Below, in pieces: positions 4,397 to 25,365 of a stretch of 36,453 nucleotides of DNA. The position numbers and the translations under genes are program-made. The stretch is from Candidatus Falkowiibacteriota bacterium. GTDB lineage: Bacteria; Patescibacteriota; Patescibacteriia; Patescibacteriales; VMTK01. The first letter of the stretch is position 1. Every line of letters begins with the position of its first letter. The notes below the pieces were generated by a model. It had not been told where the DNA came from. It saw only the letters and a program-made list of their open reading frames with translations, and searched no databases. The stretch lies in NCBI GenBank assembly GCA_013791585.1, contig VMTK01000053.1:1-36453 (forward strand), given 5' to 3'.

Positions 4397-5749
4397 ATGA
4401 ACAGAGAAAAAATTACAACCGAACATTCCGCGGAAAGTTGGAACGAAGAAGTTGAAAAATATAAAAAAGGAGAAAAAATTGATATTTATGCCAGGAATAG
4501 ATATCCGGAGTTAGAAAAGAAAGAAAAAGAGTTTGCTAAAATGATTAAAGTGCCAGATACCGCCTTATTTAACGCTGGAATGGCAGCAATTTACACAGCG
4601 ATTGAAGCGGAAAATTTAAAACCGGGCGATGTTGTATTATGCGGTAAAGATGTTTATAGCCAAACTAAAGAGATGTATAACAGTTTAGAAAAAAGGGGCA
4701 TCAAAATTGAACTGATTAATTCCGGCGATATGGATGAAATTGAAGAAAACATAAAATCTAAAAAACCAAGATTAATAATTTTAGAAGACATTGCCAATGC
4801 ACATGATATGCAAGTTTGCGATATTAAAAAGTTAGCAGGATTAACAGAACAAGCCAATGGAATATATCAATCAGAACTTTCGCCGGATAATTTACTGGAA
4901 CAATATTTTTCAAAAAGAGAGCAATATAAAGATGCATCGCCGGAATTTAAAGAAAATGCTACAACCAAGATTCAGGAATTTAAACAAGGCAATAATCCCT
5001 TTGTTTTTCGGGATATAATTAAGGAAGTTGAAGATACCGCCGATTTATCAACAAAAGATGCTATTAGAGAGGTTTCAAGGATGGTTAAATTTGTTTTAAG
5101 AAACAGTCGGGAAAAGCTGTCTTTGATTATTGACAACACTCTGGCCTCGCCTATTTTGTATAATCCTATTAAGGATTTAGAAGGCAGTGATGTTGAGGCG
5201 GTTGTAGTGGAAAGCGGTACCAAGCATTATCAGGAAGGGCAGGATAAAATTACTTTAGGCATTGCTTATTCAAACCGCCAGGGAAAAATAGACGCGATAA
5301 AGAAAAAAAGAACAGAGCTGGGAACATACTTGCAGCCGGTTGCTGAAAAAGAAATTCCGCAGGATATTACAGAAACTATGCCGGATATTTTGAAACAGCA
5401 CGCTGATAATGCCTTGAGGCTGGCAGAAATGCTGAGCAAATCAAAAAACATTATTGCAGTCAGCCACCCGAACTTGCCGGCGCATAAGCAAAATGAATTA
5501 GTTAAAGAGATTGCGCCTGAGGGGTTGGTCAGCTTGTTTTACATTAAAGTGCCGGATGCGGAGGAATTTGTAAAAAAAGTTAAAGAGCTGGGTGGAGATA
5601 AAATCGGCGTTGGCGGCAGTTTCGGCCATAAAAAGACTTGGCTTTATAATATTGGCGATCAGATTAGAATCGCGGCCGGAAGCGAAAAAGGGGTGGAATT
5701 TGAAGAAACGCTGGATATTTTCAGAAAAGCCATGGAAAAGACCGATTAA
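4397..5749 (+). CDS. Cys/Met metabolism-type PLP-dependent enzyme (cystathionine gamma-lyase/synthase fold)
   Basis: 450 aa, fold-type I PLP enzyme. NAGMAAIYTAIEA fits the cofactor phosphate-binding region. LIIDNTLASPILYNP contains the Asp that pairs with the pyridine nitrogen. VVESGTKHYQEGQDKITLG matches the family's SxTKYxxGH motif, with Lys276 as the Schiff-base lysine. Usual members are about 380-400 aa; the excess is an insert at roughly 155-235 (KREQYKDASPEFKENATTKI region). The usual GH after the lysine motif is GQ here, and the exact reaction (lyase, synthase, sulfhydrylase) cannot be read from sequence. The ATG at 4397 is chosen because it starts just after the previous stop. Its stop is separated by one base from the next methyltransferase start, suggesting co-translation. 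Confidence 0.82.
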   Translation: MNREKITTEHSAESWNEEVEKYKKGEKIDIYARNRYPELEKKEKEFAKMIKVPDTALFNAGMAAIYTAIEAENLKPGDVVLCGKDVYSQTKEMYNSLEKRGIKIELINSGDMDEIEENIKSKKPRLIILEDIANAHDMQVCDIKKLAGLTEQANGIYQSELSPDNLLEQYFSKREQYKDASPEFKENATTKIQEFKQGNNPFVFRDIIKEVEDTADLSTKDAIREVSRMVKFVLRNSREKLSLIIDNTLASPILYNPIKDLEGSDVEAVVVESGTKHYQEGQDKITLGIAYSNRQGKIDAIKKKRTELGTYLQPVAEKEIPQDITETMPDILKQHADNALRLAEMLSKSKNIIAVSHPNLPAHKQNELVKEIAPEGLVSLFYIKVPDAEEFVKKVKELGGDKIGVGGSFGHKKTWLYNIGDQIRIAAGSEKGVEFEETLDIFRKAMEKTD

Positions 5750-9279: not shown

Positions 9280-9351
9280 TACCGCCACGGGGAATCGAAC
9301 CCCGGTTACATGGATGAGAACCATGCGTCCTAACCATTAGACGATGGCGGC
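9280..9351 (-). tRNA. tRNA-Glu (anticodon CUC)
   Basis: Folds as a full cloverleaf on the minus strand. Acceptor GCCGCCA pairs with TGGCGGT (one G-U); the D-arm has GTC/GAC stems; the anticodon stem CATGG/CCATG encloses TTCTCAT, giving anticodon CTC; the T-arm is CGGGG-TTCGATT-CCCCG. Discriminator A. The 3' CCA is not encoded. It lies downstream of fmt on the same strand and ends near the bidirectional terminator. Confidence 0.96.
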
Positions 9352-9362
9352 GTGTTCAATAA

Positions 9363-9452
9363 TTCTACCGACCTTTAGGTCGGGTTTTGGCGGCTTTAGC
9401 CGCATAAGAATGAGGATAAATCCTCAAGAACCCGAGCTAAAGCTCGGTAGAA
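9363..9452. repeat. Four-hairpin nested palindromic element
   Basis: An outer stem TTCTACC/GGTAGAA (9363-9369 with 9446-9452) encloses four short hairpins with TTTA or TAAA loops: CCGACC-TTTA-GGTCGG (9368-9383), GCGGC-TTTA-GCCGC (9390-9403), GAGGA-TAAA-TCCTC (9412-9425) and CCGAGC-TAAA-GCTCGG (9432-9447). The first and last are near mirror images with compensated base changes. It sits between the fmt stop and the tRNA-Glu 5' end, so it would be transcribed with both. Confidence 0.85.
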
Positions 9453-9472: not shown

Positions 9473-10438
9473 TTATTTCAAAATACTGCCCATAAAATCA
9501 TTGTGTCCGCGCAAAAATTCTTCCCCATTCATTGCTTTTTTCCCGGCTAACTGCAGTTTTTTTATTATTAAAGCGTCTGTGCCGCACTGTACGGCCAATT
9601 TATCGCCATACAAAAATAATTCCCCGATTTTATATTTATTTATCCTAATCGGTTCATGCTCCGCCTCTATAATTTTTAACATTAAACAATTTCCGACATC
9701 CGACATCCGACATCCGATTTCCGAAAAAGCGCTTGGCCATGGAGTCATTGCTCTTACAAATCGTTCAATTTCTTCTGCCGGCTTTGGCCAATTAATTTTG
9801 CCATCTTTCTTTTTTAATACGCCGACATAACTTGCTTTCTTTTCGTCTTGCGGCATCGGCTTAATCTCGCCATTAATGTATTTTTTCAAAATTTTGATTA
9901 ACAAACCAGCGCCGATTACTGACAGTTTATCATAAAGACTGCCGGCGTTATCTGTTTGTTGAATTTTAATTTTAGCTTGCGATAAAATAGGCCCGGTGTC
10001 AAGTCCGGCATCCATTTTTATGATAGTAATTCCTGTCTGCTTGTCTCCGCTCAAAATAGGCGCTTGTATTACAGCCGCGCCCCTGTATTTGGGAAGCAGG
10101 GAGCCGTGAACATTAATGCAGCCGTATTGGGGAATGCTTAAAATTTCCTTGGGAATTAATTGCGCGTAAGCGGCAACAACTATCAGATCAATATTAGAAA
10201 TTTGAAATTTGAAATTTGAAATTCGTTGGGGCTGAAAAACAGGAATCCGGTATTTTTCAGCTTCAACTTTCACCGGCGGGGGAGTTAAGATTTGTTTTCT
10301 GCCAACCGGCTTGTCCGGCTGCGTTATAACTCCTGCTACATCAAAATAATCATCTTTAACCAGCGCTTTAAGCGATGGAACAGCAAAGTCGGGAGTGCCG
10401 ATGAAGATGGTTTTAATTTTCTTATTTTTATAACTCAT
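9473..10438 (-). CDS. fmt: Methionyl-tRNA formyltransferase
   Basis: Formylates initiator Met-tRNA using 10-formyl-tetrahydrofolate. 321 aa, normal length. The N-terminal formyltransferase domain has IFIGTPDFAVPSLKAL, and catalytic Asn109, His111 and Asp147 in CINVHGSLLPKYRGAA and MDAGLDTG. The C-terminal OB-like tRNA-binding domain includes GKINWPKPAEEIERFVRAMTP. Two arrays of 7-nt tandem units lie in the reading frame: one encodes RISNFKFQISN at residues 72-82 and another the SEIGCRMSDVG region. Both are in surface-loop positions and keep the frame. def is upstream on the same strand, the usual def-fmt pairing, separated here by a hairpin. Confidence 0.96.
   Translation of the reverse strand: MSYKNKKIKTIFIGTPDFAVPSLKALVKDDYFDVAGVITQPDKPVGRKQILTPPPVKVEAEKYRIPVFQPQRISNFKFQISNIDLIVVAAYAQLIPKEILSIPQYGCINVHGSLLPKYRGAAVIQAPILSGDKQTGITIIKMDAGLDTGPILSQAKIKIQQTDNAGSLYDKLSVIGAGLLIKILKKYINGEIKPMPQDEKKASYVGVLKKKDGKINWPKPAEEIERFVRAMTPWPSAFSEIGCRMSDVGNCLMLKIIEAEHEPIRINKYKIGELFLYGDKLAVQCGTDALIIKKLQLAGKKAMNGEEFLRGHNDFMGSILK
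9693..9727. repeat. 7-nt tandem array inside fmt (CCGACAT units)
   Basis: Three exact CCGACAT units, then CCGATTT and CCGAAAA, five consecutive heptamers in all. They lie within the fmt coding region. Since seven is not a multiple of three, the encoded residues change from unit to unit. Confidence 0.85.
10197..10223. repeat. 7-nt tandem array inside fmt (GAAATTT units)
   Basis: Three full GAAATTT units followed by GAAATT. It encodes the SNFKFQISN stretch of Fmt on the minus strand. A closely related array of GAAATTG units is present in the glycosyltransferase gene at 21885-21919. Confidence 0.88.
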
Positions 10439-10504
10439 AACCTATAACTTATAACACGCGGTAAGATAAAAAATACGAGTTATAAGTTATGGGTTATAAG
10501 TTAT
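10435..10504. repeat. Intergenic hairpin of heptamer units between def and fmt
   Basis: The left arm carries TCATAAC, CTATAAC, TTATAAC; the right arm is a matching series of complements (GTTATAAG, GTTATGG). The arms reach into the fmt start codon region on one side and the def stop codon on the other, so the element fills the whole intergenic gap. Confidence 0.75.
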
Positions 10505-12307: not shown

Positions 12308-12586
12308 ATGGCAATAAACAAAGAATTTGAAAAAATCGGGAATTTATTCAATAAAAAAACAGCGGCAAAACCGCCTGCTTACCAGTGGCAAGATCTGGCT
12401 TTAAGAATAATAAATGAATTAGCAATACCGAATTTTAAAAGAAGCTCTGTGTTCAAAATTTGCAAAGAAAAACCGAAAAATTTCATTGAAAGCTGCCTTA
12501 ACGACACCAAAGAACTTTGCAAAACAGGGGATAAGTGGAAGTATTTTTTTAAGATAGTCGGTCAAGGCACTCAAATCTACAAATAA
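12308..12586 (+). CDS. Small conserved-looking protein of unknown function
   Basis: 92 aa, soluble, basic, with two Cys separated by about 24 residues in the core (FKICKEKP, SCLNDTKELC). The central block KPPAYQWQDLALRIINEL looks like a compact helical domain; no known family is recognised with certainty. The last residues (GQGTQIYK) and the stop codon are supplied by the left arm of a 90-bp palindrome at 12567-12656, so the original C-terminus may have been different. It probably starts from a near-leaderless message (TATAAT nine nt upstream). Confidence 0.72.
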   Translation: MAINKEFEKIGNLFNKKTAAKPPAYQWQDLALRIINELAIPNFKRSSVFKICKEKPKNFIESCLNDTKELCKTGDKWKYFFKIVGQGTQIYK

Positions 12587-12656
12587 TATTCAAATCTACA
12601 AATCTTTTCTATTAAGATTATTTGTAGATTTGCATTGCATTCGTAGATTTGAGTGC
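12567..12656. repeat. 90-bp palindrome shared by two convergent gene ends
   Basis: GCACTCAAATCTAC at the left pairs with GTAGATTTGAGTGC at the right. Internal repeats of AAATCTACAAAT and its complement fill the arms. It covers the last codons and stop of the 92-aa gene and abuts the stop codon of the convergent Memo-like gene. Confidence 0.85.
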
Positions 12657-13510: not shown

Positions 13511-13595
13511 CCAAAGTTTATTGTTATATTGCTATATGGTTATATTGCTAATATAAAATTCAACCATATAGCAATATAACAATATAACAATTTGG
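13511..13595. repeat. Intergenic hairpin of 8-nt units
   Basis: Left arm CCAAA...TTGTTATATTGCTATATGGTT pairs with AACCATATAGCAATATAAC...TTTGG. The right arm contains tandem CAATATAA units. It lies in the 187-bp gap between the secreted protein gene and the Memo-like gene. Apart from this the gap shows nothing recognisable. Confidence 0.8.
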
Positions 13596-15090: not shown

Positions 15091-15099
15091 AAAAAATTA

Positions 15100-15169
15100 A
15101 TTGCTACATTGTTAAATTGTTAAATTGCTAAAATTAAAACAATTTAGCAATGTAACAATGTAACAATTT
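15100..15169. repeat. Intergenic hairpin of 8-nt units
   Basis: The left arm is ATTGTTAA, ATTGTTAA, ATTGCTAA in tandem. The right arm is TAGCAATGTAACAATGTAAC. It lies just upstream of the secreted protein start and downstream of the radical SAM gene, on the same transcript. Confidence 0.8.
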
Positions 15170-16234: not shown

Positions 16235-16371
16235 ATTGATATGATGCTAATCCGCTAATCGCGAATTTTCAAATTAAAAATACAAGAATATGAAAATATA
16301 AAAATAAATTTAAAGAATTGCTTCGATTATTCTTGTATTCTGGTATTTTCATATTTTCATTATTATTAGCA

Positions 16372-16489
16372 ATTCGCGGATTTGCATTTACCCCGCACCT
16401 TTTGGACAGTTTTGTATTATTTCTTTTGTGATAATATTTTGATTTATTATCTGCCCAAAAGGTGCGGGGTTTATTCGCAGATTAGCATT
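16372..16489. repeat. ACCCCGCACC palindromic element, copy A, with flanking direct repeats
   Basis: The palindrome 16390-16470 has perfect 16-bp arms (ACCCCGCACCTTTTGG and complement) around a 49-nt AT-rich loop. It is flanked by a 17-bp direct repeat with two mismatches: ATTCGCGGATTTGCATT at 16372-16388 and ATTCGCAGATTAGCATT at 16473-16489. The outer 13 bp of each arm are identical to copy B at 24670-24754. Confidence 0.88.
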
Positions 16490-16519
16490 ATAGCTTTTAT
16501 ATCATTTTAACAAAAATCA

Positions 16520-16548
16520 TTGAAAAAAGCAAAATTATAAAGTATAAT
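16520..16548 (+). promoter_or_regulatory. Strong sigma-70-type promoter giving a leaderless message
   Basis: TTGAAA (16520-16525), 17-bp spacer, TATAAT (16543-16548). The ATG at 16555 lies at the expected start of transcription, so translation probably begins on a leaderless mRNA; no Shine-Dalgarno sequence is present. Confidence 0.8.
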
Positions 16549-16554
16549 CAAAAT

Positions 16555-17769
16555 ATGATAAATATACTTGGAGTTAACATATCAACCCTTAATAAAAAAG
16601 AAGCTATAAAAAAAATAGAGCAATTTTTGTTTAGCGGGAAAGATGGGCAGTATCAAATAGTTACTCCCAATCCGGAATTTTTACTGCAAGCCCAAAAAGA
16701 CGAGGAATTTTTTCATATTTTAAATACGGCTGATTTAGCAGCGCCTGACGGAATCGGCTTGAAATTCGCCGGCTGGCTGATTGGTAAAAATATCACCAGA
16801 ATTGCCGGAGCTGATTTAGTGAAAGATATTCTTAAAATAGCCCAAGAAAAAAATTTAAAAGTAATGATTATTAATTGGGATGAAGGATTATCATGCGCCG
16901 GCGATATAAAAAATACTGTAAAAAATAAATATCCGAATTTATTCATGCAAGTCCAGGATGTTGAACGCGAAGGCGCGATGGCTGATTTGGAAAAAATAAA
17001 AGCGTTTGCGCCGGATATTTTAATGTCTTCCCTGGGCGCGCCTTGGCAGGAAAAATTTATTTATCATAATATGCCCAATTTGCCGTCGGTTAAACTGGGC
17101 ATTGGCGCGGGAGGAGCGTTTGATTTCTTGACAGGCAGAATAAAACGCGCGCCGAAATTAATGCGCGCGCTTGGCTTAGAATGGCTTTGGCGGCTGTTAA
17201 AACAGCCCTGGCGGATAAATCGAATATATAAAGCGGTAATAGTTTTTCCTTTTGAATTTTTCAAGTGGAGATTTTTCTTGCCGTTTATTTATAGGCAAAA
17301 TGTCGCCTGTATTTTATACAAAAAAGTGATGAAACTCGCTGATGAAAAAGGAGTTAAATATAAAATATTATTAGTATTAAGAAGCGACCAGCCGGAGCAC
17401 TGGCAATTGCCTCAAGGCGGAACCGAAGGAGAAGACATTAAAACAGCCGGCGCGCGGGAATTAAGAGAAGAATTGAATACTGATAAATTTAAAATAATCA
17501 AAACTTTTAAAAATGTCTATAAATATAAATTCAGTGATCAGCCGGGAAAATACGGAACGCAGGCAAAAACAGCTATCGGCTGCAAAGGACAAAAACAAAG
17601 TTTGATTATCGCTGAATTTTTGGGCCAAGACAGCGATATAGAAGTGAATTTCTGGGACCATTCCGGCTGGAAATGGGTTGACAGCGATAAAATAATCAAT
17701 GAAGTTTTTCCAATTCGGCGCGATGCCATTAAAGTATTTTTAAAAAAATTTGATAATGTTGACAAGTAA
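16555..17769 (+). CDS. WecG/TagA/CpsF glycosyltransferase fused to a Nudix hydrolase domain
   Basis: 404 aa, two domains. Residues 1-240 are a GT26 (WecG/TagA) glycosyltransferase: VTPNPEFLLQAQKDEEFF, NTADLAAPDGIGLKFAG, RIAGADLV, SSLGAPWQEKFIYHNM, GIGAGGAFDFLTGRIKRAP and a C-terminal membrane-associating helix (EWLWRLLKQPWRINRIYK). This family transfers N-acetyl-mannosaminuronate or ManNAc to lipid-linked GlcNAc. From about 245 there is a Nudix domain: HWQLPQGGTEGED followed by ARELREELN, a near-canonical Nudix box with the Glu-rich metal site; the WQLPQGG lead resembles RppH/Ap4A-type enzymes. A stand-alone WecG is about 240 aa, so the fusion is real unless the assembly joined two genes; no internal start is needed. 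Promoter appears leaderless. Confidence 0.85.
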   Translation: MINILGVNISTLNKKEAIKKIEQFLFSGKDGQYQIVTPNPEFLLQAQKDEEFFHILNTADLAAPDGIGLKFAGWLIGKNITRIAGADLVKDILKIAQEKNLKVMIINWDEGLSCAGDIKNTVKNKYPNLFMQVQDVEREGAMADLEKIKAFAPDILMSSLGAPWQEKFIYHNMPNLPSVKLGIGAGGAFDFLTGRIKRAPKLMRALGLEWLWRLLKQPWRINRIYKAVIVFPFEFFKWRFFLPFIYRQNVACILYKKVMKLADEKGVKYKILLVLRSDQPEHWQLPQGGTEGEDIKTAGARELREELNTDKFKIIKTFKNVYKYKFSDQPGKYGTQAKTAIGCKGQKQSLIIAEFLGQDSDIEVNFWDHSGWKWVDSDKIINEVFPIRRDAIKVFLKKFDNVDK

Positions 17770-17803
17770 AATTAGCGATGATAAGCTTAAAATACTCTAA
17801 ATT

Positions 17804-18826
17804 ATGAGCAATAAAATTACTGAAAAATATTTTGAGCACGCGAATTTTGCCGATCATGAAGAAAAATCGCTTGCAGAAATCACAGCCGAAACAAATTTTC
17901 AGCCGGAAAAAGAAATTTTTCGCGGTCAAATTTACGATAAAGACAAAGTCGGCAGTTTAATTTACAAAGGCCTTTGGCGGAATAAGCCGGCTGTATTAAA
18001 AATTCAAGGGCTCCAGCCTGATGTTGATGAGATTGACATGATTAACGCGTTTAATAACCAGAACGAAAGCGCGAAAATAAGATTGCCAAAACTTTATAAT
18101 GGCTCTAAATGGAATAGCAAGAATGGCTATGGTTATTTGATTTTGGAATATATTGACGCGCCCCAAATATACAAACCTCCTTTTGCCAATCAAGAACAAA
18201 TTCAAGATTTTTGCGCTCTTTATCAAGAATATAAAACTAAATGCTTAAAAAGTCCTTTTATGGAAAAAGAGCCAAATGAACAAAGCAGCCTTGTCTTTAC
18301 GACACAGCGCGTTTCTCATTGGGCTAAAATCGCGCAGTCAAAAGGGCATTTGGCTGAAACAGAAGTGAAAAATGTTGAAAAATTTCTTTCTCTGTCGAAA
18401 AAACATCTGCCATCAATTAAAATGGAATTTATGCACGGACATTTTACGTATAATGATATATTCAAGCTTTCGGATAAAGAATATGTATTGATGTCAAATT
18501 TATTTTGGTCATACAGGCCTGAATTTTACGATGCGACATTTCATCTGTGGGCTGGAATCAAAAGCATAAGAGATGAAAATATTATATTTGAGCAAATAAA
18601 AAAATATATTCAAAATTGGATTAATGAATACAAAAAACTGCCTATCATTCGGCAGGATTCCGATTTTGAAAAAAAATTCAATATAATGATGGCTGAACGA
18701 TGCATAGGGGCTTTGCTTGTTGATATACAAAATCAAAATTACGGCATTAATCGCGATAATCTTGTCGCGCGCTTAACTGAATTATTCAGAGAATTATTTA
18801 AATATTTTACAAACAAATTGGAATAA
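17804..18826 (+). CDS. APH/choline kinase-like protein, probably catalytically dead
   Basis: 340 aa. The overall pattern of the aminoglycoside-phosphotransferase kinase fold is present: an ATP-lysine-like AVLKIQG, a hinge-like YLILEYIDAP and the Brenner-type motif region MEFMHGHFTYNDIF. The catalytic HGD is HGH (His211-Gly-His213) and the Asn five residues later is Asp218; the metal-binding DxE/DW region is VLMSNLFW, with no acidic residue. These replacements suggest a pseudokinase or a non-kinase use of the fold. It follows the WecG-Nudix gene by 34 bp on the same strand, so probably in one operon. Substrate unknown. Confidence 0.65.
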   Translation: MSNKITEKYFEHANFADHEEKSLAEITAETNFQPEKEIFRGQIYDKDKVGSLIYKGLWRNKPAVLKIQGLQPDVDEIDMINAFNNQNESAKIRLPKLYNGSKWNSKNGYGYLILEYIDAPQIYKPPFANQEQIQDFCALYQEYKTKCLKSPFMEKEPNEQSSLVFTTQRVSHWAKIAQSKGHLAETEVKNVEKFLSLSKKHLPSIKMEFMHGHFTYNDIFKLSDKEYVLMSNLFWSYRPEFYDATFHLWAGIKSIRDENIIFEQIKKYIQNWINEYKKLPIIRQDSDFEKKFNIMMAERCIGALLVDIQNQNYGINRDNLVARLTELFRELFKYFTNKLE

Positions 18827-18850
18827 AAAAATTTATATACTTTTAAAATT

Positions 18851-19027
18851 ATGAAATTCAAAATTAAAAAATACATCTACTTAATAAACGACATCACCAA
18901 TATTGTGCTTAAAAAAGAAAGGGCGCAAACAGAAGAAAACGCTGAAAAGTTGCGTGTTGCTTTAATTATTGTTAGTATTGTCTTAACGGTTTCCTTGGTT
19001 TTGAATGTTTATTTATTTATATCTTAA
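18851..19027 (+). CDS. 58-aa single-span membrane peptide
   Basis: Begins MKFKIKKYIYLIND, has a charged middle (KKERAQTEENAEKLR) and a single C-terminal membrane helix (about 36-57: VALIIVSIVLTVSLVLNVY). It fits the 230-bp gap between the pseudokinase and gltX, on the same strand. Basic amphipathic N-half inside, helix at the end; no Shine-Dalgarno sequence. Function unknown. The complete open frame with a membrane-protein composition supports it being real. Confidence 0.55.
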   Translation: MKFKIKKYIYLINDITNIVLKKERAQTEENAEKLRVALIIVSIVLTVSLVLNVYLFIS

Positions 19028-19058
19028 TAAAAATACAGAAGTTTAATTTTTAAATTTT

Positions 19059-20570
19059 ATGCCAAAAGCGCGCTTGCGGTTTGCGCCGTCTCCAACCGGA
19101 TATTTACATATAGGCAGTTTAAGAACTGCGCTTTTTTGCTATCTGGCCGCCAAAAGCTTGGATGGCGAATTAATTCTCAGGATTGAAGATACTGACCAGA
19201 AAAGGGAAGTTGAGGGAGCTGTTGAGGATTTGATTGAAATTTTGGACTGGGTTGGAATTAAATTTAACGAAGGCCCTGATTTGAAACGCGCCGCTACAAA
19301 TGGCGCCCATGCGAATGAAATAAGGATGGGAGGCGAATACGGACCGTACATTCAAAGCCAGAGGATTGGTATTTATAAAAAATACGCTGATGAATTAATT
19401 AAATCAGGCAAGGCGTATTATTGCTTTTGCTCCCAGGAGCGCCTGCAAAAAATGCGCGAAGATCAACAGGCAAAAAAACTGCCTCCGCGTTACGACAGAT
19501 GCTGCCGCGAGTTAACTAAGCCGGAGATAGAAAAAAAATTAAAAAATAAAGAAGAATTCGTCATCAGGCAAAAGATGCCATTGTCCGGCGAAGTTGTCGT
19601 TCGTGATGAATTGCGCGGTGAAATTAAATTCAAAGCCGAAGACATGGATGACCATGTTTTAATAAAATCAAACCACATTCCAACTTACCATTTCGCGCTA
19701 GTGGTTGACGACCATTTGATGGAGATAACCCATGTCATAAGGGGCGAGGAATGGATACCGTCTTTCCCTAAAAATATTTTGCTTTATAAAGATTTTGGAT
19801 GGCAGCCGCCGAAATTTTACCACATGCCGCTAACGTTGAATAAAGAAGGCGGTAAATTGAGCAAGAGGCAGGGCGATGTAGCCGTAGAAGATTATAAAAA
19901 GAATGGCTATCTGCGGGAAGCTTTGATTAATTTTTCTGTTTTGCTTGGCTGGCATCCAAAAGATGATCAGGAATTATTTACGCTAAAAGAGCTAGAAAAA
20001 AAATTTAAGCTGGATGATATGGGTACAAGCCCGGCGATTTTTGATATTGAAAAGCTGGATTATATAAATGGATATTATATACGGCAGATGGATTTGGAAA
20101 AGCTCGTTGAACTGTGCAGGCCGTATTTGAAAGATAATCTAACAAAAACACAAAAACACAAAAACACAAAAACACATTTTATAAAAAAAGTTGTGGCGCT
20201 GGAGCAGGAGAGGTTAAAAAAACTGTCTGAAATAGGAGAGTTGACTGAATTCTTTTTTGTTGATAAGCTGGAATATCCGGCTGAATTATTAATTTGGAAA
20301 AAACTAACAAGCAAAGAAGTAAAAGCTAATTTGGAAAAAGTTTATGAATTATTAAATAAAATTCCGGATGAAAATTGGACCAATGATTCCATTGAAGACG
20401 CTTTGATAACATATATCAAGGCCAAGAAAGAAAAAGTCGGAAATTATCTCTGGCCCATGCGCGCCTCGCTAACCGGCCGCCAAGCCAGCCCGGGCCCGTT
20501 TGATGTGGCGGAAGTTCTTGGTAAAAAAATCAGTTTAAATAGGATAAAGGAGGGGATAAATAAACTTTAA
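19059..20570 (+). CDS. gltX: Glutamyl-tRNA synthetase
   Basis: Charges tRNA-Glu (and possibly tRNA-Gln for later amidation) with glutamate. 503 aa, slightly longer than usual. Class I signatures: RFAPSPTGYLHIGSLRTAL (HIGH = HIGS) and KLSKRQGD (KMSKS). Also present are RIEDTD and the Rossmann insertion with a Cys pair (YYCFCS). The anticodon-binding part follows from about 330. An array of 8-nt units inserts TKTQKHKNTKTH near residues 362-373, in the hinge before the anticodon-binding helices. The window also contains the cognate tRNA-Glu(CUC), though 10 kb away. Confidence 0.97.
   Translation: MPKARLRFAPSPTGYLHIGSLRTALFCYLAAKSLDGELILRIEDTDQKREVEGAVEDLIEILDWVGIKFNEGPDLKRAATNGAHANEIRMGGEYGPYIQSQRIGIYKKYADELIKSGKAYYCFCSQERLQKMREDQQAKKLPPRYDRCCRELTKPEIEKKLKNKEEFVIRQKMPLSGEVVVRDELRGEIKFKAEDMDDHVLIKSNHIPTYHFALVVDDHLMEITHVIRGEEWIPSFPKNILLYKDFGWQPPKFYHMPLTLNKEGGKLSKRQGDVAVEDYKKNGYLREALINFSVLLGWHPKDDQELFTLKELEKKFKLDDMGTSPAIFDIEKLDYINGYYIRQMDLEKLVELCRPYLKDNLTKTQKHKNTKTHFIKKVVALEQERLKKLSEIGELTEFFFVDKLEYPAELLIWKKLTSKEVKANLEKVYELLNKIPDENWTNDSIEDALITYIKAKKEKVGNYLWPMRASLTGRQASPGPFDVAEVLGKKISLNRIKEGINKL
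20142..20176. repeat. 8-nt tandem array inside gltX (ACAAAAAC units)
   Basis: Four exact ACAAAAAC units plus ACA. It lies in the GltX coding frame and is translated as a Lys/Thr/Asn/His-rich loop. It differs from the other coding arrays only in unit length. Confidence 0.9.
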
Positions 20571-20606
20571 CGCACTTTTTATTTTTAATATTGGAAGGAG
20601 GACAGG

Positions 20607-20876
20607 ATGGTAAATTTTATAATAGCAGCTCTATGTTTTAGTTTAGGATTTATTTATGGCTGGCTTTCTGCTATGCTCACAAACAAAGTTTTTGACAAAG
20701 CAAATTTAAGGGCAATAATAATAGTATTTATACTGCTAATGGCAAGCATGCTTTACCTAAAAATCCTTAACTCTGGGATTATTTTAGGATTTATTGGAAT
20801 AGTAGTTGGATATTGTTATTGTTGCAAACCGGCACAATGGCATTACTTTGCTTCAAAGTATTTCAAACACTATTAA
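20607..20876 (+). CDS. Small membrane protein of unknown function
   Basis: 89 aa, three hydrophobic segments (about 3-26, 35-53, 57-72), ending in a Cys/His-rich tail (YCYCCKPAQWHYFASKYF). GGAAGGAGG five nt before the ATG is a near-perfect Shine-Dalgarno sequence, unlike most genes here. It follows gltX and precedes another small gene with an equally strong ribosome binding site, so the two likely form an independently translated pair. Confidence 0.65.
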   Translation: MVNFIIAALCFSLGFIYGWLSAMLTNKVFDKANLRAIIIVFILLMASMLYLKILNSGIILGFIGIVVGYCYCCKPAQWHYFASKYFKHY

Positions 20877-20894
20877 AACAAGGAGGGCGCGCAA

Positions 20895-21068
20895 ATGGGA
20901 AAAATATGTCATGTTTGCAAAAAACCAGGAAAAAAAGAAGGAACACATGTTGACAGAACAAGCAACCCGAACAGGCCGGTTGTATTTCACAGATACAACT
21001 GCGCAACCCACAAGTGCCAAAAGCACAAGCAGCACATCGGCGATGAAGATATCAGGGGGAAATATTAA
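20895..21068 (+). CDS. 57-aa Cys/His-rich, zinc-finger-like protein
   Basis: Starts MGKICHVCKKPG and carries a CxxC knuckle at Cys5/Cys8 with further Cys36 and Cys41 and many His (FHRYNCATHKCQKHKQHIGD), a spacing compatible with one zinc site. AAGGAGG eight nt before ATG 20895 decides this frame over a longer overlapping reading frame that lacks such a site. Highly basic, so nucleic-acid or ribosome binding is possible. A perfect hairpin terminator follows. Function unknown. Confidence 0.68.
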   Translation: MGKICHVCKKPGKKEGTHVDRTSNPNRPVVFHRYNCATHKCQKHKQHIGDEDIRGKY

Positions 21069-21092
21069 AACAATTTCAACCAAATTATTCCG

Positions 21093-21125
21093 AGGAGGTT
21101 TAAAATTTTAAACCTCCTTTTATTT
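21093..21125 (+). terminator. Terminator after the small-gene pair
   Basis: Perfect 26-bp palindrome (AGGAGGTTTAAAA and complement) followed by TTTTATTTTTG. It separates the small genes from the glycosyltransferase promoter. Confidence 0.85.
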
Positions 21126-21140
21126 TTGATTAGATTATCG

Positions 21141-21146
21141 TATAAT
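21141..21146 (+). promoter_or_regulatory. -10 box of a near-leaderless promoter
   Basis: TATAAT nine nt before the ATG at 21156, right after a terminator. No convincing -35 element. Transcription would begin within a few nt of the start codon. Confidence 0.5.
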
Positions 21147-21155
21147 AAAGCTACT

Positions 21156-22304
21156 ATGAAAACTTTATTATTCACATTAGAATATCCTCCATTTCGCGGC
21201 GGTGTGGCTAATTATTATGGTAATATAGTAAAATACTGGCCATCCCTTGCTAAGACTTCGGGGGGCAAGTTAGAGCCGAATAATATTTTTGTCCTGCATA
21301 ATAATGATAATAAATTAATAAAAAATTGGCTTTACCCAAAATGGCTGACGGCTGTTTGGCAGGTTTGGAAAATTATTAAAAAAGAAAAAATTGATCATAT
21401 TCTTGTCGGGCATATTTTTCCTCTGGGTACTGTTGCGTATTTTATATCCCAAATAACCAAAACGCCGTATTCTGTAATTTTGCATGGCATGGATTTTACT
21501 TTCGCGCTGCGCGCCCGCAGAAAAAGAAACATAACTAAACGAATTTTAAAAAATGCGGAAAATATAATTTGCGGCAATAGTTATACGGCTGGGCTGGTAA
21601 AAAAATTTATCGGCGATGAATATGCCGGCAAAATAAAGGTGGTTAATCCGGGAATAGAATCTCGCATAACCCCGCAAATGCTTTGCAAAACGGGGCAGGC
21701 GCATAACGCGCAACGCATAACGCAAATTAAAGAAAAATATAATTTAGATAATAAATTAGTATTACTAACAGTCGGCAGATTAGTTAAGAGAAAGGGCGTT
21801 GACAAGGTTTTAGAAAGTTTGCCGCCTGTGTTGAAAAAAAAGCCGAATTTAATTTATGTTATTCTTGGCAATGGGCCGGAAATAGGAAATTTGAAATTGG
21901 AAATTGGAAATTGGAAATTAGAAAAAAATGTAATTTTGATTACAGACGCGGATGATGAAAGCAGAAACGCCTGGTATAAAATTTGTGATATATTTATAAT
22001 GCCAGCAAGAAATATCAAAGGAGATTTTGAGGGATTCGGCATTGTTTATTTGGAAGCTAATTTAGCCGGTAAGCCGGTTATTGCCGGCAATAGCGGGGGA
22101 GCGCGAGACGCGGTTGAAAACGGAGTAAACGGCCTGCTGGTTAATCCTGAAGATATAAACGAAATCAGCAATGCGATTATTAAATTGGCGCAAGATGAAA
22201 ATTTAAGAAAAAAGTTAGGAGAGCAGGGGAGGGAAAGGTCTATTCGTGAATTTAGTTGGGAAAAGCAAGCGGAGAAAATATATAATTGTGTAACTTATAA
22301 ATAA
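21156..22304 (+). CDS. GT4-type glycosyltransferase (GT-B fold)
   Basis: 382 aa; likely adds a sugar to a lipid-linked or envelope glycan on the cytoplasmic face of the membrane. The N-domain has LEYPPFRGGVANYYGNI; the C-domain shows KLVLLTVGRLVKRKGVDKVL and the donor-binding EGFGIVYLEANLAGKPVI with E-x7-E, then GGARDAV. It contains two 7-nt arrays: CGCATAA/CGCGCAA units encode AHNAQRITQ around residues 182-192, and GAAATTG units encode GNLKLEIGNWKLE near 243-256. Both sit in loops between Rossmann elements. The ATG at 21156 is chosen for its -10 box and the conserved N-terminus. GT2, DUF192 and O-antigen-ligase-like genes follow on the same strand. Confidence 0.9.
   Translation: MKTLLFTLEYPPFRGGVANYYGNIVKYWPSLAKTSGGKLEPNNIFVLHNNDNKLIKNWLYPKWLTAVWQVWKIIKKEKIDHILVGHIFPLGTVAYFISQITKTPYSVILHGMDFTFALRARRKRNITKRILKNAENIICGNSYTAGLVKKFIGDEYAGKIKVVNPGIESRITPQMLCKTGQAHNAQRITQIKEKYNLDNKLVLLTVGRLVKRKGVDKVLESLPPVLKKKPNLIYVILGNGPEIGNLKLEIGNWKLEKNVILITDADDESRNAWYKICDIFIMPARNIKGDFEGFGIVYLEANLAGKPVIAGNSGGARDAVENGVNGLLVNPEDINEISNAIIKLAQDENLRKKLGEQGRERSIREFSWEKQAEKIYNCVTYK
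21700..21727. repeat. 7-nt tandem array in the GT4 gene (CGCATAA/CGCGCAA units)
   Basis: Four heptamers: CGCATAA, CGCGCAA, CGCATAA, CGCAAAT. The same CGCGCAA and ATGCG words recur, reversed, just upstream of greA (about 35819-35839). Confidence 0.85.
21885..21919. repeat. 7-nt tandem array in the GT4 gene (GGAAATT units)
   Basis: Five consecutive 7-nt units, one of them TGAAATT. The unit is nearly identical to that of the fmt array at 10197-10223, although the genes are unrelated. Confidence 0.88.
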
Positions 22305-22317
22305 TTAAAGCATTATT

Positions 22318-22393
22318 TAGTTAACGAGTTAGCGGGTTAACGAGTTATTATTAAAAATTTAATCAACTGGTTAACTCTTTAATTCGTTAACTA
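22318..22393. repeat. Intergenic hairpin of 8-nt units
   Basis: Left arm GTTAACGA, GTTAGCGG, GTTAACGA in tandem; the right arm GGTTAACTCTTTAATTCGTTAAC is its imperfect complement. It fills the gap between the two glycosyltransferase genes. Confidence 0.82.
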
Positions 22394-22421
22394 AAAAATT
22401 AAATAATTTTTGTTATTTATT

Positions 22422-23120
22422 ATGATTTCAATAATAATTCCCGTCTATAATCAGGCGGAAAAATTAAAACAATGCCTGGAAAGCATTAAAAATCAAGCTT
22501 ATGATAATTACGAAATTATTATCATTAACGACCGCTCAACCGATAAATTAAGCAGAATTATTGAATTGTCAAAAAAAGAATTCGGATATAAAATTGAATG
22601 GCTGCATAATTATAGAAACCATGGGGCTCCTTATACGCGCAATAAGGGCTTTAGAAAATCAAAAGGAGAATATCTATTGTTTTGCGATGCTGACGCTGAA
22701 TTAACGCCAAATGCCCTGGAATTAATGTTAAAAACTTTAAATGAAAATCCAAATACGAGTTATGCTTATTCCAGCTTTTTGTGGGGCAAAAAATTATTTA
22801 AATTAGAACAATTCAGCGCGAAAAAATTAAAACAAATGCCGTATATCCATACAATGTCTTTAATTAAACGGGAAGATTTTCCCGGAAACGGCTGGGATGA
22901 ATCAACAAAAAAACTGCAAGACTGGGATCTGTGGCTGACCATGCTGGAGCAGGGGCATGTTGGGGTTTGGATTGATAAAATTTTATTTAAAGTGCAAACT
23001 GGCGGAACAATAAGCAGCTGGCTGCCTTCATTCGCTTACAAAATTTTCCCTTTTTTGCCAAGCGTGAAAAAATATAAAAAAGCGGTTGAGGTAATTAAGA
23101 AAAAGCATAGGTTGATATAG
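22422..23120 (+). CDS. GT2 family glycosyltransferase
   Basis: 232 aa, GT-A fold. MISIIIPVYNQAEKLKQCLESI opens the nucleotide-binding fold; IIINDRSTD and LFCDADAEL supply the acidic nucleotide and metal-binding residues; later LQDWDLWLTML matches the usual [E/D]DWDL acceptor-site region. ATG 22422 begins directly at the fold, whereas an in-frame ATG at 22410 adds four residues. A hydrophobic C-terminal stretch (SSWLPSFAYKIFPFLP) may associate with the membrane. With the upstream GT4 and the downstream O-antigen-ligase-like protein it suggests a surface-glycan locus. Confidence 0.9.
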   Translation: MISIIIPVYNQAEKLKQCLESIKNQAYDNYEIIIINDRSTDKLSRIIELSKKEFGYKIEWLHNYRNHGAPYTRNKGFRKSKGEYLLFCDADAELTPNALELMLKTLNENPNTSYAYSSFLWGKKLFKLEQFSAKKLKQMPYIHTMSLIKREDFPGNGWDESTKKLQDWDLWLTMLEQGHVGVWIDKILFKVQTGGTISSWLPSFAYKIFPFLPSVKKYKKAVEVIKKKHRLI

Positions 23121-23122
23121 CC

Positions 23123-23205
23123 GCTGGCTGCGGGTGTCTCACCCGCGGCATCACCGCAGTTTAAACAGCGCTGCAAACGTCAAGGGTGAGACACCCTTGA
23201 CCAGC
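23123..23205. repeat. Two-hairpin REPIN-like element
   Basis: Hairpin 1 GCGGGT-GTCTC-ACCCGC and hairpin 2 TCAAGGGT-GAGAC-ACCCTTGA are reverse complements in their cores (GGGTGTCTCACCC), with outer ends GCTGG/CCAGC. The element can fold as two hairpins with complementary loops or as one long stem. It lies between the GT2 and the lipoprotein gene. Confidence 0.85.
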
Positions 23206-23215
23206 TGTTAACTAT

Positions 23216-23638
23216 ATGAAAAAAATTTTATTTTTAGCATGCGGCGCTATTCTAATTTTATCCGCATGTTCAAGTAATAACATAAAATCCGCCACAATTA
23301 ACAACACCGAAATAAAAATTGAAATTGCAGACACGCCGGAATTAAGATATCAAGGATTAAGCAATAAAGAAAAATTATGCGCTGACTGCGGCATGCTTTT
23401 CGTTTTTCCAAACAAAGAAATAAGAACATTTGTTATGCGCGATATGAATTTCCCCCTAGATATAATCTGGATAGATGATGAAAAAGTTGTTAAAATAAAT
23501 AAAAACACGCTCCCCGAGGGAAGCGATCCTGTGATGCGATATTCAAGCGATGCTCCGGCTAATTATGTTTTGGAAGTTAATTCCGGGTTTTGCGAGGAAA
23601 ATGGGATTGGAGTAGGGGATAAAATAAATTTAAAATAA
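23216..23638 (+). CDS. DUF192 family lipoprotein
   Basis: 140 aa. Lipoprotein signal: MKK, hydrophobic run, lipobox LSAC with Cys18 the lipidated residue. The remainder is a standard DUF192 domain: ELRYQGLSNKEKL, CGMLFVFPN, TFVMRDMNFPLDIIWID, then SSDAPANYVLEVNSGF and GIGVGDKI. DUF192 proteins are small extracytoplasmic beta-barrel-like proteins of unknown activity. The start lies a few nt from the palindromic element that precedes it, and the stop is two nt before the O-antigen-ligase-like start, suggesting co-transcription. Confidence 0.92.
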   Translation: MKKILFLACGAILILSACSSNNIKSATINNTEIKIEIADTPELRYQGLSNKEKLCADCGMLFVFPNKEIRTFVMRDMNFPLDIIWIDDEKVVKINKNTLPEGSDPVMRYSSDAPANYVLEVNSGFCEENGIGVGDKINLK

Positions 23639-23640
23639 AA

Positions 23641-25365
23641 ATGTCAATTTCAAACTTATTCAACCAAAAATTTACTTTAATATTAGCGCTTATTCTTTTA
23701 GCTGAATTATTTTCAATATTCGGCTATCTTTTGCCTGATTTTAATAATTTTGCTTTTTTAATAATAATTTTTCTTGCTTTAATTCTATCTTTAATAAATC
23801 TTGAATATGGAATCTGGATAATTTTCGCGGAATTATTTATCGGGTCAAAAGGGTATTTATTTGCTTTTGAACAAGGAGAATTTTTAATTTCAATCCGCAT
23901 AGCTTTGTGGCTTATTATAATGGCTGTCTGGCTGGGCAAAACTATTTCTAACGGAATTAAGCATAAAAAATTAGAAATAAAATTTTTCAAATCTTGTTAT
24001 TTTTATTATTTTATTATTTTATTTTTATTCATAGCATGGGGAATAATAAACGGTATATTAAATCATAACAGTTTTAATAATATATTTTTTGACTTTAACG
24101 GCTGGCTGTATTTTACGCTTGTTTTTCCTGCTTATAGCGTGTTTAAAAAAAGCGCAACAAATTATTCTAGAATACAAAAAAATAATTCAGCCGTTCACGC
24201 AAAATCAGAAATTCAAAGCAAGCGCGCCAAACCCTGGATTCCCGCTTTCGCGGGAATGACAGGCGCTGCGCGGCTGGATTCACCTATTAATACAATTCTA
24301 CAAATTTTCACAGCTTCAATAATCTGGTTAAGCGCGAAAACTTTATTTTTGTTATTTATTTTTTCGCACAACATAACAAGCATAACAAGCGAATTGTACC
24401 GCTGGACGCGCGTAACCGGAGTAGGGGAGATAACGCAGATGCAAGGCGGCTTTTACCGCATATTCTTCCAGTCGCATATCTTTGTCTTGATCGGACTTTT
24501 TGTATTTATTTTGTTATTAACGCAAATAGTAAATCAAAAGGATAAATACGACAAAAAAATTCTTACTTCTTACTTCTTGCTTCTTGCTTCTTTTTTATCT
24601 ATTATTCTAATCAGCTTTTCCCGCAGTTTCTGGGTAGGATTGATTATAGGTTTATTATTTTATTATTTCACCCCGCACCTTTCTTCAAGTTTTGTTATAG
24701 ACAAAAATTTTTCTAATAAAAAATACAGTAATATCTTGAAGAAAGGTGCGGGGTTTATTATTTTATTATTTTACAAAACCAGCTGGAAAAAATTATTAAA
24801 ACTTAGCGGAACTTTATTAATCTGCGCGATCATGAGCATCGGCCTAATTATCGCTATTGTTAAATTTCCATATCCAAATCCGACAGGCGGATTCAGCACC
24901 GCGGAATTATTGTCGGAGCGGGCCGGCCAAATAAGCGGGGAGGCAGGCGCTTCTTCGCGCTGGGCGCTATTGCCGGAATTATGGGATGAAATAAAACAGT
25001 CGCCAATTTTAGGGCAAGGATTCGGCGCGACTGTCACTTACAAATCCAGCGACCCCAGAGTGCTGGAGTCCAGCCCGACAGGAGAATACACGACTTACGC
25101 GTTTGAATGGGGCTGGCTGGATATCTGGCTAAAGCTTGGCTTGCTGGGGTTAATTTCTTATTTAGCGCTACTCGCAAAAATAATTATTGATGGTATTTTT
25201 AGAAATAAAGCAAAAGATAAAATTATTTACGGGCTAACGATCGGATTAATAGTTATATCCGCGGTAAGCATATTCAGTCCCTATATGAACCATCCTTTGG
25301 GCATAGGCTATTTAATATTATGCGCGGCCATAATAAATGCTTATGGCGCGGAGGAGATAGAATAG
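23641..25365 (+). CDS. O-antigen ligase/polymerase-like multi-span membrane protein carrying inserted repeats
   Basis: 574 aa, about 10-12 membrane helices and a large extracytoplasmic loop (about 420-495) with SSRWALLPELWDEIKQSPILGQGFGATV, as in the O-antigen ligase (WaaL/Wzy_C) family, where an Arg and an H/N near this loop act in glycan transfer. Three repeats interrupt it without closing the frame: a dRS3-like palindrome giving KPWIPAFAGMTGAARLD (about 200-216), a 7-nt array giving TSYFLLLAS, and the 85-bp ACCCCGCACC palindrome giving TPHLSSSFVIDKN and GAGF. It may still work, since they fall in loops or between helices, but it could also be a decaying gene. Likely part of the surface-glycan locus with the two glycosyltransferases. 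Confidence 0.82.
   Translation: MSISNLFNQKFTLILALILLAELFSIFGYLLPDFNNFAFLIIIFLALILSLINLEYGIWIIFAELFIGSKGYLFAFEQGEFLISIRIALWLIIMAVWLGKTISNGIKHKKLEIKFFKSCYFYYFIILFLFIAWGIINGILNHNSFNNIFFDFNGWLYFTLVFPAYSVFKKSATNYSRIQKNNSAVHAKSEIQSKRAKPWIPAFAGMTGAARLDSPINTILQIFTASIIWLSAKTLFLLFIFSHNITSITSELYRWTRVTGVGEITQMQGGFYRIFFQSHIFVLIGLFVFILLLTQIVNQKDKYDKKILTSYFLLLASFLSIILISFSRSFWVGLIIGLLFYYFTPHLSSSFVIDKNFSNKKYSNILKKGAGFIILLFYKTSWKKLLKLSGTLLICAIMSIGLIIAIVKFPYPNPTGGFSTAELLSERAGQISGEAGASSRWALLPELWDEIKQSPILGQGFGATVTYKSSDPRVLESSPTGEYTTYAFEWGWLDIWLKLGLLGLISYLALLAKIIIDGIFRNKAKDKIIYGLTIGLIVISAVSIFSPYMNHPLGIGYLILCAAIINAYGAEEIE
24238..24257. repeat. dRS3-like palindrome inside the O-antigen-ligase-like gene
   Basis: ATTCCCGCTTTCGCGGGAAT fits exactly the Neisseria dRS3 pattern ATTCCC-N8-GGGAAT. 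Translated in frame as WIPAFAGM, with flanking GC-rich words AGCGCGCC and GGCGCTGCGCGG. Confidence 0.85.
24560..24594. repeat. 7-nt tandem array in the O-antigen-ligase-like gene
   Basis: TTCTTAC twice, TTCTTGC twice, then TTCTTTT: five consecutive heptamers within the coding frame. Confidence 0.85.
24651..24771. repeat. ACCCCGCACC palindromic element, copy B, with flanking direct repeats, inside a gene
   Basis: The palindrome 24670-24754 has perfect 20-bp arms beginning ACCCCGCACCTTT, around a 45-nt AT-rich loop. It is flanked by a perfect 18-bp direct repeat (TTTATTATTTTATTATTT) at 24651-24668 and 24754-24771. It lies inside the O-antigen-ligase-like frame. It shares with copy A the outer 13 bp of the arms and an AGTTTTGT motif at the arm-loop junction, while the inner arm bases differ but stay paired. 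Confidence 0.88.

Follow-up and report, generated by a model that had tools for sequence, protein, structure and literature searches.

Transposon classes are defined by their enzymes, and we know of no prokaryotic class that is built on a GIY-YIG nuclease. Nor, to our knowledge, has a mover been named for the Rickettsia palindromic elements (RPEs). These RPEs are in-frame palindromic insertions in many unrelated protein genes (PMC10969869). In its accessible sections, a 2024 survey of rRNA insertions in CPR bacteria assigns every GIY-YIG protein to insertions other than group I or group II introns, seemingly outside a homing context, and finds that many ORF-less insertions are short; these sections leave the GIY-YIG insertions unclassified and make no mention of arms, duplications, or copies across the genome (PMC11270868).

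Here, we analyzed a window of 36,453 nucleotides (the whole stretch of DNA studied) from a Candidatus Falkowiibacteriota bacterium, whose genome is a draft of 1.34 Mb in 73 contigs. The window carries two hairpins, copies A and B (table 1), in which an earlier note had seen a new palindromic mobile element. Both hairpins sit where that note placed them: the 10-mer ACCCCGCACC is exact at four places in the window, all of them arms of copies A and B, and with at most one mismatch it has five matches compared with 0.48 expected. As single-stranded DNA, the two hairpins folded far better than shuffled sequences (z of −8.4 and −11.2). As had been noted, AGTTTTGT directly follows the left arm in both copies and the inner arm bases differ between them; the perfect pairing claimed for the inner arms was observed in copy B but not in copy A, which has one mismatch (GGACAG vs. 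GGGCAG). The interior of copy A is nearly identical to the inverted interior of the copy at C50:2316. Copy B lies within a gene, as claimed, and together with its 4-bp duplication it accounts for 87 bp, or 29 codons, that are in frame and open in the host ORF. No GIY-YIG nuclease gene was found within the window. Rfam gave no match at the two elements, and no group I or group II intron core was matched at the window copies or at loci L034 and L057; each short copy is a single hairpin. The AT-rich inverted repeat of the host that contains copy A (ATTCGCGGATTAGCA units with TCATTATTATTAGC) is dispersed in the genome (window 16245-16490, L048:2562-2713, and L056:731-865). Further intergenic AT-rich inverted repeats, with short repeated phrases such as ATTGTTAAATTGTTA and ATAACTTATAAC, occur in the window at 13519-13591, 15099-15168, 10430-10504, 12567-12656, and 145-196, and strong imperfect hairpins TTCTACCGACC...GAGCTAAAGCTCGGTAGAA (9363-9452) adjoin a tRNA gene (9280-9351, minus strand).

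Table 1. Features of copies A and B and their host sites in the window
Feature	Position	Strand	Remark
Copy A element, 79 bp, CCCCGC...GCGGGG, non-autonomous	16391..16469	-	strand set by family consensus CAGA...ACTG
Copy A left arm, 19 bp	16391..16409	+	
Copy A right arm, 19 bp	16451..16469	-	1 mismatch vs. left arm
Copy A target duplication, left, TTTA	16387..16390	.	
Copy A target duplication, right, TTTA	16470..16473	.	
Older AT-rich repeat, host site of copy A	16336..16486	.	paralogous empty site in L048 (C37)
Copy B element, 83 bp, non-autonomous	24671..24753	-	
Copy B left arm, 19 bp	24671..24689	+	perfect pairing
Copy B right arm, 19 bp	24735..24753	-	
Copy B target duplication, left, TTCA	24667..24670	.	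1 substitution from TTTA
Copy B target duplication, right, TTTA	24754..24757	.	
Period-8 tract (TTTATTAT)n, split by copy B	24651..24773	.	empty site = perfect 36-bp period-8 run
Copy B host gene, O-antigen ligase-like (Wzy_C), 574 aa	23641..25365	+	29 aa element-derived

Copies A and B belong to a dispersed family. The genome contains 49 exact matches to ACCCCGCACCTTT, 26 in forward and 23 in reverse orientation, compared with 0-1 for the reversed control, and with related arms included there are about 36 elements, which share the layout CCCCGC...GCGGGG with 19-bp arms and mostly measure 59-98 bp. The gene-less copies, mostly 59-149 bp, are short, have no coding capacity, and bear terminal inverted repeats, which are features of MITEs. 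The 34 distinct arm pairs hardly differ at positions 1-13 and vary widely at positions 14-19, where complementarity is kept. Positions 14-20 formed 176 Watson-Crick pairs, compared with 120 (sd 6.4, maximum 138) when arms were exchanged among copies; at position 20, which is mostly A/A or T/T, pairing is almost absent. The inner arm bases thus show strong covariation, and the paired structure of the arms is maintained, whether through selection or because one arm is copied from its partner. An identical element was observed inserted at CAGA into two different members of the same family, at L050 (C42:3908-4056) and L032 (C44:19912-20014); the outer right half of the C44 element was apparently lost via recombination between right arms.

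The earlier note had taken flanking repeats of 17 bp (copy A) and 18 bp (copy B) for target duplications. These repeats are present as sequence, but the real duplication is 4 bp, usually TNNA. We compared the flanks at the CCCC/GGGG edge of 38 elements (36 from this genome and 2 from G006) and found an exact 4-bp duplication in 20 of them, compared with a mean of 2.95 (maximum 9 in 2000 trials) when the left flank of one copy was paired with the right flank of another; flank repeats of 6 bp or longer were absent among the 38. The duplicated tetramers are mostly of TNNA form (TTTA, TAAA, TCAA, TTGA, TGGA, and TCCA). The outer A..T that had been counted with the arms lies outside CCCC..GGGG and belongs to the 4-bp duplication, and a 2-bp duplication with arms starting ACCCC was set aside when the edge of the element turned out to be CCCC..GGGG. 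At copy A, the 17-bp repeat consists of two units of the older AT-rich repeat, which is also found element-free at L048; after removal of the element and one TTTA, 63 of 68 bp matched this paralogous empty site without a gap, whereas retaining both TTTA forced a 4-bp gap. At copy B, removal of the element and four bases yields a perfect 36-bp period-8 tract, (TTTATTAT)4.5, and the 18-bp repeat is apparent because any insertion into such a tract shows one; the true duplication there is TTCA/TTTA with one substitution. The flank comparison and these two alignments ruled out a 17-18-bp duplication. Empty sites with a single tetramer were also observed in the 23S rRNA genes of relatives (G005, G007, G009, and G012, with some opposite-strand relatives left out), at the positions of the elements at C50:6703 (TGGA) and C50:3281 (CATA). 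The duplication is thus of fixed length, as in MITEs. The earlier note had named a lack of further copies and a lack of empty sites as findings that would speak against mobility; many copies were found and empty sites exist, and its proposal of a dispersed mobile element that would move in trans is supported by the approximately 36 genome copies, the precise insertions, the empty sites in relatives, and the target duplication.

Removal of the element plus 4 bp restored open reading frames at many places. All 14 gene-internal insertions have a length that is a multiple of three, are in frame, and are stop-free; their hosts are GatB, MiaA, RibE, RibF, PrmC-like, radical SAM, pyruvate:ferredoxin oxidoreductase gamma-like, and reverse transcriptase-like proteins, glycosyltransferases, the copy B O-antigen ligase, and others, with names that lack a family search being a reading of the sequence. 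Compared with their PDB homologues, GatB, MiaA, and RibE have 24-37 extra residues exactly at the element; the host protein of copy B has no PDB relative, and hence no orthologous empty site was available for B. In addition, two insertions lie at codon 2-3 (of an L4-like gene, rplD, and of an ABC transporter gene), three lie in the 23S rRNA gene, and one element array lies in a tRNA-Leu D-loop. Preservation of the frame is most simply explained as survival of tolerated copies.

Two longer copies in one 23S gene (L034:3281-3405, 125 bp, and L034:5184-5313, 130 bp) have the inner arm TTTTAGCCGAT in common, and one of them has TCCC..GGGA ends, a compensated change; more 23S rRNA insertions (102, 144, 127, and 90 nt), without family arms, are present at L034:4502-4918 and 5616-5705. 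At C29:1-320 (L060) and C43:1-320 (L065), the tRNA-Leu D-loop is interrupted by a family element that carries a complete tRNA-Leu(CAG). Of the arm/half-tRNA units in this array, three are 5' and at least three are 3', located at contig ends of the draft assembly; they suggest repeated nesting of the element in its own tRNA.

Full-length elements of the family are about 300 bp (280-320 bp) and contain a single gene for a protein of 86-89 aa. The copy at C16:42841-43151 (311 bp) has one ORF as its interior, encoding an 89-aa GIY-YIG nuclease (Pfam E 2.7e-17); its duplication is GAAC, and its removal restores the host protein frame ...YWSSTENSATNAWKQNF. A second full-length copy with a GIY-YIG gene was found at C29:5640-5935 (296 bp), and a third GIY-YIG copy at C48:44469 has a left arm and no right arm that we could see. 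The genome has no small GIY-YIG genes other than these three, each inside a family element, and a fourth Pfam match is UvrC-like. The dN/dS between the C29 and C48 nucleases was 0.10, so the protein is under selection. In the nuclease alignment, Y5, Y16, G18, R26, and E62 are invariant, and the conserved catalytic Tyr, Arg, and Glu of the GIY-YIG domain are present, which places the protein in that family. It matched the structure of a UPF0213 protein (1zg2, E 2e-10), and its AlphaFold model was confident over the domain (mean pLDDT 82.7). No known transposase was found between family arms, such as the parent of a MITE would carry; the full-length elements encode the GIY-YIG protein only. At L039 (C3:1-167), a right arm is present without a left arm before the contig start, the element being cut by the contig end, and the C3 upstream sequence resembles that beside the C48 (L096) nuclease gene; these sequences may stem from a longer, leader-bearing variant.

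Genomes with the exact window arms are few (2 of 41 relatives, G000 and G006; 2 of 380 genomes of the phylum, G000 and G180), and therefore we traced the class via the nuclease instead of the arm. A species-genome scan with a tight nuclease alignment returned 80 loci, mostly from CPR, with flanking arms above the 95% null in 38 and above the 99% null in 23; in relatives, about 20 of 60 further nuclease loci had arms above the 95% null. By the measure used, about half of the 80 scanned loci lacked arms, and hence the nuclease is not confined to such elements. Arms such as CCCCGCACCTTTTGGTCAC, CCCCGCACTAATTTTCG, and CCCCCACACCTAATAATATG occur in the closest relatives, and among relatives with CCCC-type arms an exact 4-bp duplication, often TTGA, was present in 9 of 21 (null 1.6; 0/5000 as high). 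Short copies with like arms were found in some of these same genomes. On a tree of 45 nucleases and 86 columns, with many weak forks and a well-supported three-way split, the arm classes (CCCC-CAC type, CCCCGTTA type, and GTCATTCCCGC hairpin type, partly assigned by hand after an automatic call) changed only twice, which is the minimum, compared with a mean of 18.4 when shuffled (0/200 as low); arm type thus tracks nuclease phylogeny. Small GIY-YIG genes of the sister clade are flanked by palindromes GTCATTCCCGC..GCGGGAATCC, GTCATTGCGAG.., or GTCATCCCGAG.. at L100, L103, L109, L111, L112, L140, L141, L142, L154, and L178, and no clear target duplication was seen at these loci. We take the palindromes GTCATTCCCGC, GTCATTGCGAG, and GTCATCCCGAG to be repeats common in environmental bacteria.

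We consider it likely that copies A and B are MITE-like members of a transposable element family whose full-length form, of about 300 bp, carries the GIY-YIG nuclease gene, and that this nuclease is very probably the mover. The full-length form has the UPF0213-like nuclease gene between 19-bp complementary arms (CCCCGCACCTTTT...), and we propose that the nuclease would recognize the arms, probably as a hairpin, and cut TNNA targets with a stagger. Once the element had been joined in, filling of the 4-nt gaps would produce the 4-bp duplication. Short copies, consisting of arms and filler only, would be moved in trans, the window copies included. Copies in genes would persist if harmless, that is, in frame and stop-free in proteins, beside a start codon, or present in rRNA as one more hairpin. 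The GIY-YIG enzymes known to us leave 3' overhangs of 1-2 nt, not 4, so a 4-nt stagger by such an enzyme would be new, which counts against the proposal, as do the lack of a nuclease gene in the window, the missing right arm at C48, the related nuclease genes without arms, and the chance that a longer element was broken at contig ends in the 73-contig draft.

The arms, the 4-bp duplication, and the internally deleted derivatives also form the textbook pattern of an insertion sequence and its MITEs. A conventional IS with a DDE transposase could own the arms, with copies A and B as its MITEs and the GIY-YIG gene as a passenger, and draft assemblies would be expected to lose IS copies. However, the GIY-YIG gene is the only gene seen between the arms, at three loci here and in many other genera; the elements, at just 280-320 bp, have no room for a second gene; and arm type tracks nuclease phylogeny. 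We therefore regard this explanation as unlikely. Homing is distinctly improbable: GIY-YIG enzymes are classical homing nucleases, and the copy in tRNA-Leu lies nested within its own target, as if the nuclease cut element-free alleles and host recombination copied the element in, with scatter via rare repair errors, yet in a single genome the family is present at no fewer than 36 sites that are unrelated except for a TNNA-like tetramer, and it has a fixed 4-bp duplication, which homing does not make. We attach very little credence to a Y1 (RAYT) transposase as the mover, with the hairpins as palindromes of the REP type. The hairpins are similar in size and the genome has one Y1-like gene, but this gene has hairpins of its own (CCTCGTCAGAGTC...), unlike the family CCCCGCACC arms, and RAYT-driven movement of REPs is not known to leave a target duplication, as opposed to the 4 bp found here; a Y1 mover was rejected, the Y1 gene having no hairpins that match the family. 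This sole Y1 transposase gene, at L267 (C34), is flanked by its own REP hairpins (CCTCGTCAGAGTCTCCTGAAAGGGACTCTGACG). That these are ordinary hairpins, terminators or products of chance whose similarity is coincidental, accords with the intergenic position of some copies and has a negligible probability given the copy number, the duplications, and the positions in rRNA and protein genes, and it is refuted by the empty sites.

We further propose, with moderate confidence, that such elements may constitute a separate prokaryotic transposon class of about 300 bp, whose sole protein, a UPF0213-like GIY-YIG nuclease, would recognize the arms and transpose with a 4-bp TNNA duplication; this class would be widespread in CPR, would make short palindromic repeat families, and may drive the very common GTCATTCCCGC/GTCATTGCGAG repeats beside the sister clade. 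In the open-access literature, to which our search was limited (preprints, subscription papers, and ISfinder being outside its scope), we found no bacterial GIY-YIG transposable element of such make-up, so its novelty is provisional. If confirmed, these elements would be among the smallest autonomous transposons and would provide a function for many of the small annotated GIY-YIG genes of CPR, an explanation of the unclassified CPR rRNA insertions, and a model for the spread of palindromic elements such as RPEs into protein genes.

The window family resembles several known systems and differs from each. Like the RPEs, it enters unrelated protein genes in frame (14 internal insertions, all open); unlike them, it has defined arms and a 4-bp duplication, enters rRNA and tRNA, and has nuclease-coding full-length copies. 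It shares with bacterial MITEs the gene-less form, the terminal inverted arms, the target duplication, and the putative movement in trans, but its parent is no IS with a known transposase, the GIY-YIG nuclease being its sole gene. As in the REP/RAYT system, a single small nuclease is associated with hairpins; however, the enzyme family is another one, and the window family has long, paired arms at its termini instead of REP pairs, along with a 4-bp duplication. With the free-standing or intron-borne GIY-YIG homing endonucleases (I-TevI, Seg), it has a catalytic domain of identical kind, whereas it is without an intron, is found at numerous unrelated sites, and has terminal arms and duplications. 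Penelope-like retroelements also contain a GIY-YIG nuclease within a transposable element, but they are eukaryotic and have a reverse transcriptase, whereas the nuclease is the only gene here. The CPR rRNA insertions, as reported in the accessible sections of the 2024 survey (PMC11270868), likewise combine GIY-YIG genes with short ORF-less insertions in rRNA, and they are plausibly the same elements as the window family.
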